This document shows, piece after piece, positions 19,362-25,479 of a stretch of DNA of 38,093 nt. The first letter of the stretch is position 1. Every line of letters starts with the position of its first letter. The notes beneath the pieces are model-generated. The model was not told where the DNA came from and ran no database searches. It saw only the letters and a list, made by a program, of their open reading frames with translations. This stretch comes from SAR202 cluster bacterium (GTDB taxonomy: Bacteria > Chloroflexota > Dehalococcoidia > Lucifugimonadales > VGZY01). A program made the position numbers and the translations under genes. The stretch is from positions 1 through 38,093 of the forward strand of contig VGZY01000025.1 of assembly GCA_016872355.1 (NCBI GenBank). Reading direction: 5' to 3'.

Positions 19362-19766
19362 GGGCCCATAAGGCTCTTCACCGTCTTTAGTAGCTCCTCC
19401 GCGCCCTTCAGCGCCTCACGCGCTTCGTCTGGGTCATCATAGACTTGAAAGGGCACTCCCCCCTGGAAGCGCATCGGGATAGCGTGTCGGCGAATAGTAT
19501 TTATCCAGTCGGTTTGCCAGATTTACAAAAGCCTCGAGAGGCGGAAAGGAACTTTTCAGATCGGCGACGAGCTCCACCAGAGAGTGCCCTCGAGCCGTCC
19601 TGTCGCCACGGTGATATGCCAGCGCCTTCAAACATTTCTCCGCCGTTTGATGGGAGACAAACAGGACATGTGAGTGAAACCCGCCGCTCAGAGAATGCTT
19701 GGCGATCGCTAACTCGTGTTCCGCCTGAAGGAACCATCGGCGTGCCTCACCCGGGCTATTCTTCAT
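19358..19766 (-). pseudogene. HEPN-domain toxin-like protein, frameshifted
   Basis: The open part (19766 to 19437) encodes 109 residues beginning ARRWFLQAEHELAIAKHSL, with the HEPN feature VLFVSHQTAEKCLKALAYH. It stops early after YPDALPGGSALSSL. Dropping one G from the six-G run (plus-strand C-run 19458-19463) restores GVPFQVYDDPDEAREALKGA and a normal helical end, giving about 135 residues and a stop at 19358. HEPN proteins paired with MNT nucleotidyltransferases act as RNases that the partner silences by nucleotidylation. It overlaps the MNT gene by 11 bases. The frameshift may be real or a homopolymer error. Confidence 0.75.
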
Positions 19767-20103
19767 ATATCACGACGCCTTGCTGGACAGCGTCCTCAAG
19801 AAATGCTCTACCTTCGGCAAGCATGGTGTCAAACTCTTGCGGAGTGTAGATAAGAACATCCATCGCTCTGGGCCACGCTTGAATAAGGCCTTCGAATAGC
19901 TCGTATCTCCTGGTCCACTTCAAATCGGTATCCACGACGATGATCAAATCGATGTCGCTGTACCTGTCCGCTATCCCATTTGCGTATGACCCGAAAAGAA
20001 TGGCTTTAATTGCGCCGCCGCGCCTGAGGATTGGCGCGAACGCCTCCTTGATCTCGTCTATAGTCGGAATCCCCGTGAGCACCTTCGTGGGATTTGTCTG
20101 CAT
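19756..20103 (-). CDS. MNT-type nucleotidyltransferase (antitoxin of MNT/HEPN pair)
   Basis: A 115-residue minimal nucleotidyltransferase. The pol-beta-fold motif is ILFGSYANG followed by the metal-binding SDIDLIIVV (two aspartates) and a later Asp in MDVLIY. Such proteins transfer AMP to a tyrosine of the adjacent HEPN protein. The gene starts 11 bases after the enolase stop and overlaps the HEPN gene, so this pair sits at the end of the eno operon. Confidence 0.85.
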   Translation of the reverse strand: MQTNPTKVLTGIPTIDEIKEAFAPILRRGGAIKAILFGSYANGIADRYSDIDLIIVVDTDLKWTRRYELFEGLIQAWPRAMDVLIYTPQEFDTMLAEGRAFLEDAVQQGVVIYEE

Positions 20104-22123: not shown

Positions 22124-22154
22124 AAAACAAAAGCGTTCCGATTTCGCGGAACGC
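22124..22154 (-). terminator. Intrinsic terminator of the structured RNA
   Basis: On the minus strand GCGTTCCG (22154-22147) pairs with CGGAACGC (22140-22133) around CGAAAT, followed by TTTTGTTTT. This is a classic intrinsic terminator with no coding gene immediately upstream of it. Confidence 0.8.
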
Positions 22155-22443
22155 CTCTCGAATTATCTATTCAATTGTAGTCCATCGGCCCTGCAATTTC
22201 AGTATTCACTACTGAAGGACCGCGCCCGTGAAGGGCATTTGCGGTGTGTCCCTATCGTTACGCAGGGCTCCCGGTTTCGCAAACCCTTACCGGCTGTATC
22301 ACCCTGTTCCTGTACTATCCTGCCACGCCGGTAAGGGAATGAGAAGGAAACTTCCAGCACTGATGCGTCGCCATTAGTTGTCTAGCCAACTCATCCCTCC
22401 CTTCGGCTTGATCTTTCTTGAAGAAGCTCATCGCTTCTTCAAG
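22124..22443 (-). ncRNA. Predicted structured noncoding RNA, about 320 nt
   Basis: A gene-free stretch on the minus strand between the homocysteine methyltransferase and the LOG-like gene. It holds many perfect stems: CTTGAAGAAGC/GCTTCTTCAAG (22443-22417), CCCTTACCGGC/GCCGGTAAGGG (22337-22327 with 22294-22284), GCCCTGC/GCAGGGC (22268-22262 with 22194-22188) enclosing CCGC-GCCC/GGGC-GCGG (22244-22220) and TTCAGTA/TACTGAA (22216-22198). It has a promoter upstream and an intrinsic terminator. It lacks the hallmark sequences of tmRNA, RNase P RNA and SRP RNA. An upstream AAGGGAGGGATGAG could also pair with CTCATTCCCTT, competing with the second stem. Confidence 0.6.
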
Positions 22444-22446
22444 TTC

Positions 22447-22474
22447 ATACTACTACCAGACCCGCTTTTGTCAA
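22447..22474 (-). promoter_or_regulatory. Promoter of the structured RNA
   Basis: On the minus strand TTGACA (22474-22469), 16-base spacer, TAGTAT (22452-22447). The predicted start is near 22440, at the foot of the first hairpin. The -10 box is only partly consensus, so the exact start is uncertain. Confidence 0.55.
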
Positions 22475-24646: not shown

Positions 24647-25330
24647 TTATCGGTCCTTCTTCTTTTTCGACTCCACCGTATTCGAGAAGGTGTCCGTATC
24701 CGCGACCGTGCCATTTTCGTTGTAGCTGGTCACTGTCAGGTTCACCTTATCAAAGCTCAGCGCTAACCTCTTCCCATGGTCGCGGTACTTGTCGATCTGA
24801 ACGTTCTCAAACTCGTAGGCTATCCGCACCACGGTCCCATCTTTCAGGGTCGAATCGATGTTCAGGTTCACGGTATCGAACATCGTACCGTCATCAGCCG
24901 CCGCAGCCAGGGCCGGGTCCGAAGAGTCCGGGACTTTGATTAGCTGGGCAATCCTGAGCTTGCTGAGCATCTTCTCTATCCGGTTCTTATTGCCTTTTCC
25001 GGGCTTTGGCTCAGCGATCTTCTCGAGCTTCTTCTGTACCTTCTCGACGTCACTCCAGTCGATATAACCTGGGTCTGTCGAGTCACCGTCCACTCCGTCG
25101 AACTTCACGTGAATCCCCGGGTCCGGAAGCGTTCCGCCGCCGCCCGGCAAGGTGCCGCCACCGCCAGGAAGTGTCCCGCCTCCACCGGGCAAGGTGCCGC
25201 CGTCCCCAGGGAGCGTACCGTCCGCAAACACCGGGCTCCGGCCCAGGCCGGAAAATACAACTAACCCCATAACCGCTACCGCTAGAAACGCCGCGAGCAA
25301 ATAACCTCTGCCTATCCCAATTGCCTTCAT
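24647..25330 (-). CDS. Secreted Hcp-like protein with glycine-rich repeat linker
   Basis: A 227-residue protein. ATG 25330 is chosen because GGAGG lies six bases upstream. A signal peptide spans residues 1 to about 36 (hydrophobic core LLAAFLAVAVMGLVVF, cleavage near VFADG). Then come five GTLPGGGG-type repeats. The folded part begins VKFDGVDGDSTDPGYIDWSDV and includes IKVPDSSDPALAAAADDGTMF, then YEFENVQIDKY and ALSFDKVNLTVTSYNENG. These match the order of conserved segments in the Hcp1 family of type VI secretion tube proteins. No other type VI gene is near. The tail is KKKKDR. Family assignment rests on pattern, not a search. Confidence 0.6.
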   Translation of the reverse strand: MKAIGIGRGYLLAAFLAVAVMGLVVFSGLGRSPVFADGTLPGDGGTLPGGGGTLPGGGGTLPGGGGTLPDPGIHVKFDGVDGDSTDPGYIDWSDVEKVQKKLEKIAEPKPGKGNKNRIEKMLSKLRIAQLIKVPDSSDPALAAAADDGTMFDTVNLNIDSTLKDGTVVRIAYEFENVQIDKYRDHGKRLALSFDKVNLTVTSYNENGTVADTDTFSNTVESKKKKDR

Positions 25331-25479
25331 TCTCAACCTCCACACCAGTTTTCCGCATCAGGCAATGGCCGTTCACCGGGGATCTCACCCCACGCCGGTC
25401 ACACCCAAATCAGATGGCTTGGCACCATTTCTATCGCGGGATGGGAACTATATCAATCCCTGACTAAAACGTGCGCTCA

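Follow-up and report, generated by a model that had tools for sequence, protein, structure and literature searches.

We describe here a family of RNAs of about 300 bases, apparently undescribed, that occurs across the Dehalococcoidia, including SAR202 bacteria, and whose members each combine a conserved fold with a tiny peptide gene. Our reference member lies in the window, that is, the whole 38,093-nucleotide stretch of SAR202 cluster bacterium DNA that was analysed. The original prediction had proposed a new class of structured RNA gene in a gene-free stretch and left its strand unstated; the unit proved to be encoded on the minus strand, from about 22440 to 22124. The proposal held in that the RNA is independent, structured, outside Rfam and built on conserved covarying stems. 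However, the stretch is not gene-free, as it contains a Shine-Dalgarno (SD) site at 22401-22395 and a short ORF at 22389-22315, both on the minus strand. Nor is the RNA simply noncoding, because this conserved micro-ORF takes up some of the 5' half, and a main helix has one of its strands overlapping the codons. Judging from sequence comparisons, our tentative reading, to which we give slightly less than an even chance, is that of a stand-alone dual RNA whose nascent peptide, helix P3 or both would pause the ribosome at a proline codon and so gate RNA folding. The features of the unit are as follows.

22447 to 22474, minus strand: promoter, TTGACA (22474-22469) and TAGTAT (22452-22447) with a 16-base spacer, 10/12 in a consensus scan.
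22124 to 22440, minus strand: RNA gene, transcript of about 317 bases, with ends inferred from the promoter and terminator and the family assigned by covariance model.
22418 to 22443, minus strand: P1, a 5' hairpin (CTTGAAGAAGC/GCTTCTTCAAG), from folding and a stem scan.
22395 to 22401, minus strand: Shine-Dalgarno site GGGAGGG, from the sequence.
22315 to 22389, minus strand: micro-ORF of 24 codons from a TTG start to TAG, reading MARQLMATHQCWKFPSHSLTGVAG, supported by coding tests on sets unselected for the ORF (z 4.5 to 6.7).
22345 to 22356, minus strand: W-K-F-P codons, the core of the peptide motif [H/C]-x-W-x-[F/Y]-P.
22284 to 22337, minus strand: helix P3 and its loop, with a 5' arm (22337-22327) inside the ORF and a 3' arm (22294-22284), from covariation and fixed distance.
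22188 to 22267, minus strand: three-way junction closed by P4 (22267-22261 with 22194-22188, GCCCTGC/GCAGGGC), from covariation.
22219 to 22245, minus strand: P5, a hairpin inside the junction (ACCGC...GCGGT, inner GCCC/GGGC), from folding.
22198 to 22216, minus strand: P6, hairpin TTCAGTA-GTGAA-TACTGAA, from covariation.
22129 to 22158, minus strand: intrinsic terminator, a stem of 12 pairs with a T-rich tail, from a consensus scan.

The promoter and the intrinsic terminator had both been predicted, and consensus scans recovered both on the minus strand. Similar signals recur in the family: an upstream promoter scoring at least 9/12 was found in 30 of 54 members (5% in shuffles), and 38 of 55 members (2% in shuffles) have a terminator that ends 224-314 bases past the start codon. 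The minimum free energy (MFE) of the 317-base transcript is -114.6 kcal/mol, compared to -93.5 +/- 5.1 for shuffled sequences (z -4.1). Because the plus-strand complement likewise beats its shuffles (z -5.1), folding energy alone gives no strand, and the minus strand is settled by the promoter, the terminator, the ORF and the relatives. Several relatives also have 5' hairpins, different in sequence from P1.

DNA similarity searches among 98 relatives returned nothing above chance, because the genome is the sole member of its family in the collection. A covariance model based on the single sequence (R1) returned one relative from 250 genomes of the order, with an E value of 0.002 per genome (L019/L023); this relative has its own terminator and sits between other genes. 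The three other R1 matches (L020-L022) were not accepted as relatives. A two-sequence model (R2) then gave seven more relatives, with E values of 1e-9 to 2e-4 per genome, and a 17-sequence model (R3) detected the RNA in at least 76 of the 250 genomes and 44 of the 97 genera of the order, counts that are lower bounds since scans of more than 40 genomes use stricter filters. According to R3, about a dozen genomes carry at least two good copies, and several hold two or three. Tandem pairs of RNA genes, about 570-630 bases apart, were observed in L090 (3086 and 3652) and L099 (3022 and 3653). Further, weaker members were found by R3 outside the order but within the class, in a sample of 393 class genomes; outside the class, the scores from 340 genomes of the phylum were all weak, which we read as chance. 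A DNA pattern describing only the ORF was also searched in about 85,000 species. It gave 20 matches, all titled Chloroflexi, Chloroflexota, Dehalococcoidia or SAR202, and 14 of these also score with the RNA model R2.

Covariance-model searches with the 4227 families of Rfam 15 gave no match for this RNA at the gathering threshold, only tRNA being found elsewhere in the window, and at E values up to 10 the RNA obtained only chance microRNA scores. The initial view had been that hallmarks of tmRNA, RNase P RNA, 6S-type hairpins and SRP RNA are not seen. Two candidates were rejected individually: tmRNA (RF00023) and RNase P RNA (RF00010) have no match here, and their true genes lie elsewhere in the assembly (G000:C87:196-547 and G000:C73:286-732, respectively). 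6S RNA (RF00013) was found neither here nor in the rest of the genome, with a model that is insensitive in distant phyla and detected it in only 5 of 14 control genomes. A diverged known class (6S or SRP RNA), a mobile element or a toxin-antitoxin RNA would fit the size of the RNA, its single copy in many genomes, the tandem copies in a few and the failure to find 6S RNA in this genome. Nevertheless, we consider such an origin highly improbable, given the Rfam results, the presence of tmRNA and RNase P RNA elsewhere and a conserved ORF that is alien to 6S and SRP RNA; moreover, no viral contig matches the ORF pattern exactly, and the peptide is unlike type I toxins, which are hydrophobic. Full-text searches, whose partial coverage leaves room for an earlier report, found no published description of the RNA. 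A survey of 50 genomes including Dehalococcoides reports the rdhA motif there, not this RNA (PMC11109978). Another survey, of 104 motifs, records Chloroflexi-1 and pan for the Chloroflexi (PMC2864571); each has an Rfam number, and neither is matched by this RNA.

An SD site and an ORF were present upstream of the modelled part in all eight relatives detected by R1 and R2, that is, by the RNA model alone, and these eight ORFs read MVxxFxxxHxWxFP or near it. Members from outside the order have L-C-x-W-x-F-P in the same frame (for example MKLALLCRWNFPSRGSLSA). Family peptides are 14-50 residues long and share the motif His/Cys-x-Trp-x-Phe-Pro. In 62 members, the residue two positions before Trp is H in 51, C in 9, and Q and R in one each, the start codon is ATG (41), GTG (16) or TTG (5), and GGAGG stands 5-6 bases upstream of the start codon in 43. 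Because the motif served to place the ORF, the counts for W, F/Y and P depend on it, and the exception L087 (W-K-C-P) was missed. Between 8 and 12 codons precede Trp.

Coding selection was tested by comparing in-frame amino-acid similarity to column permutations, in sets unselected by ORF. The eight R1/R2 members gave z 5.4 for codons 2-10 and z 6.7 for codons 2-14; 18 R3 members gave z 4.5 for codons 2-8, which lie outside the model; and nine members from outside the order gave z 6.6. In these sets the frame contains no stop, and the other frames contain several. The coding signal peaks up to position Trp+3 (z 7.8), falls to 2.4-3.1 and is absent past about +11, and two of the peptides terminate directly after FPS or YPC. 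By comparison, then, the micro-ORF is under coding selection in the sequences studied, its conserved part covering about the first 14-15 residues and ending in [H/C]-x-W-x-[F/Y]-P-[C/S]. A Pro-Ala-Gly that follows the core is partly conserved, which could have a cause at the peptide as well as the RNA level. The peptide has no Pfam match. Programmed frameshifting was considered by eye, and no conserved slippery heptamer and no subsequent long ORF were seen.

A few copies depart from this pattern. L089 (1193-1365, a second copy in G096) and L094 (2981-3151) have an SD site and HxWxYP codons and lack an in-frame ATG, GTG or TTG after the SD site, pointing either to an unusual start codon or to a decayed ORF. 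A second copy in L141, a few hundred bases past the first, retains the promoter, SD site, P3, P4 and terminator, and its ORF reads MHDILALLCRWDEDSKGSSLVNGGDE, in which LLCRW is kept and F-P is lost. Since the first two lack a usual start and the third lacks F-P, the peptide may be dispensable in some copies; these cases may reflect decay or an RNA able to work without the peptide.

Covariation was counted on MAFFT alignments built without structure. In P3, P4 and P6 together, 20 of 26 pairs show double (compensatory) changes and 88-90% of cells are paired; in 500 shuffles the covariation score was never as high. The predicted GCCCTGC/GCAGGGC-closed three-way junction was thus borne out, being present in the MFE structure and covarying in the relatives. 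In the two-sequence MAFFT alignment, P3 is one base out of register in L042, and counts were taken from larger alignments. P5 varies in size and is present in L042 with changed pairs. Eight members found by the ORF pattern only had 15 double-change pairs versus 7.7 +/- 1.8. Moreover, pairing in P3 is preserved across amino-acid changes, with RLISS in L050, RLADW in L046 and VPVNS in L043. The comparison shows that P3 and the P4/P5/P6 junction are under selection for base pairing. Coding and structural selection were each demonstrated on sequences unselected for that property. The unit would thus qualify as a dual-function RNA on two counts, a conserved ORF with coding selection in sets unselected for the ORF, and RNA structure beyond coding need in P3, P4 and P6.

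These two signals bear on readings in which only one product matters. The RNA could mainly serve as mRNA for a free micropeptide whose target in trans would be a protein, a metal or a membrane, and its helices would contribute to stability, translation control and termination. Clear coding selection and a strong SD site speak for this, and the conserved His/Cys and aromatic residues could make a binding motif. Still, we regard it as unlikely, though it deserves serious attention: a covarying P4/P6 junction of about 100 bases past the stop codon exceeds the needs of an mRNA tail, the conserved core can be merely 14-15 residues without Pfam match, and P3 is held at a set distance from the Pro codon. 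Conversely, the junction could be the active part of a trans-acting small RNA, with an ORF whose main role is to load a ribosome or which some lineages are losing. The covarying junction would agree with this, as would the L141 second copy, which retains the fold without F-P, and L089 and L094, which lack the usual start; the coding selection seen class-wide argues against it and leaves it a clearly smaller share of probability than the free micropeptide.

The stand-alone dual RNA that we favour draws on the geometry of P3. Its 5' strand overlaps the codons that follow Pro. In 40 of the 55 members, which include the greater part of those found outside the order, this strand begins 9-11 bases past the Pro codon's first base, although the codons preceding Trp can number anything from 8 to 12; in the window it starts at 10 bases. 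If Pro occupied the P site, P3 would have its foot at the mRNA entrance of the ribosome, a position that follows from established ribosome geometry and is applied here by inference. Together with the conservation of W, F and P, this distance fits the pattern of a ribosome arrest peptide with Pro as the candidate stall codon.

The original prediction had also seen a switch in two alternative AAGGG partners for one CCCTT segment. Predicted pairing makes it plausible in this RNA, but it is not conserved base for base. When the 5' part is folded alone, the SD site is predicted to pair with the P3 5' arm (mean probability 0.77); in the full transcript this pairing is not predicted, because the arm pairs with its 3' partner. 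The alternative pairing between the SD site and the P3 arm is predicted in only some relatives. Predictions run without a control put the SD site in a helix in 85% of members and generally pair the start codon as well, in part with the F-P codons. What the family does conserve is where helix P3 lies with respect to the Pro codon.

The surroundings of the RNA differ from locus to locus. In crude ORF calls, downstream genes vary in kind and strand; therefore, the RNA is not the leader of one gene. A convergent mobA-like gene lies directly past the terminator in 12 loci and an XdhC/CoxI-like gene downstream in 11 (among them L034, L035, L039, L040, L042, L045, L106 and L113). In the window, TIGR00725 follows about 195 bases past the terminator, then eno, on the same strand. 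A leader peptide or attenuator for the next gene would account for this arrangement and for the classical order of micro-ORF, helix and terminator, yet the lack of a consistent same-strand downstream gene and the 12 convergent mobA-like genes leave it little credit. Elsewhere on the minus strand of the window, an MntA-like nucleotidyltransferase ORF (19756-20103, weak match) is followed by a small ORF (19437-19766), and this pair after eno (19437-20103) is possibly a type VII toxin-antitoxin; an ORF at 24647-25345 has at least four GGGGTLPG-type repeats and no NCBIfam match.

For the dual RNA, we propose the following sequence of events. One promoter and one terminator would yield a transcript of about 300 bases. 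Ribosomes would load at the SD site and pause with Pro in or beside the P site, held by a short nascent chain whose H/C, W, F and P would all lie near the peptidyl-transferase centre, by the P3 foot at the mRNA entrance or by both. While the ribosome sits at Pro, P3 would be unable to form fully; upon its departure, P3 and the junction would fold and the SD site would tend to be buried. Because no gene is consistently downstream, the output would be in trans, through the P4-P6 junction, which may bind a protein, the ribosome or other RNAs.

Parts of this arrangement have parallels. RNAIII, SgrS and SR1 are regulatory RNAs that also encode a small protein; they are unrelated in sequence to this RNA, and none of them is known to have a helix fixed at a set distance from a peptide codon. 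tmRNA is also a stand-alone structured RNA with a small internal ORF, but here the ORF has its own SD site and start codon, no tRNA-like ends are seen and the genome has a true tmRNA. rnTrpL of Sinorhizobium, an attenuator of the trp operon, is similarly a short RNA in which hairpins and a terminator come after a leader-type ORF, and both RNA and peptide have roles outside the usual leader role. Its leader peptide, peTrpL, was shown to act in trans (PMC7298713). In contrast, no operon follows here, Trp codons do not occur in a run, and both the sequence and the fold are different. Arrest peptides such as TnaC and ErmCL (e.g. PMC8429421) likewise have a very short nascent chain, in which conserved Trp and Pro or aromatic residues lie near the stall codon, here a candidate, and an RNA hairpin comes next. 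Those peptides control a downstream gene; the motif here differs from theirs, and stalling is a prediction. The cyanobacterial yfr6, described as an RNA with a short ORF, and Downstream-peptide RNAs resemble our family: they measure about 250 bases and carry a conserved short ORF but no large gene. Their conserved structure is the 5' UTR, whereas here it lies within and after the ORF (PMC2864571).

Extended to the whole class, the Dehalococcoidia may possess a device that stops the ribosome through two elements acting together, a nascent peptide some 14 residues long ([H/C]xWx[F/Y]P) and a hairpin placed 10 bases past Pro; it would control no gene of its own, taking ribosome occupancy as its input and giving its output through a trans-acting RNA junction. 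This broader proposal is speculative, and we would sooner bet against it than for it. With this family, SAR202 and their relatives, which are mostly uncultured bacteria, gain a conserved gene for RNA plus peptide; annotation skips such short ORFs in these organisms, and few described RNAs were found for them. The peptide motif and the alignment ease the search for the family in existing metatranscriptomes, and the fixed distance between the conserved Pro codon and a covarying helix formed in part by codons offers a testable indication that the ribosome and the RNA fold are coupled outside any operon.
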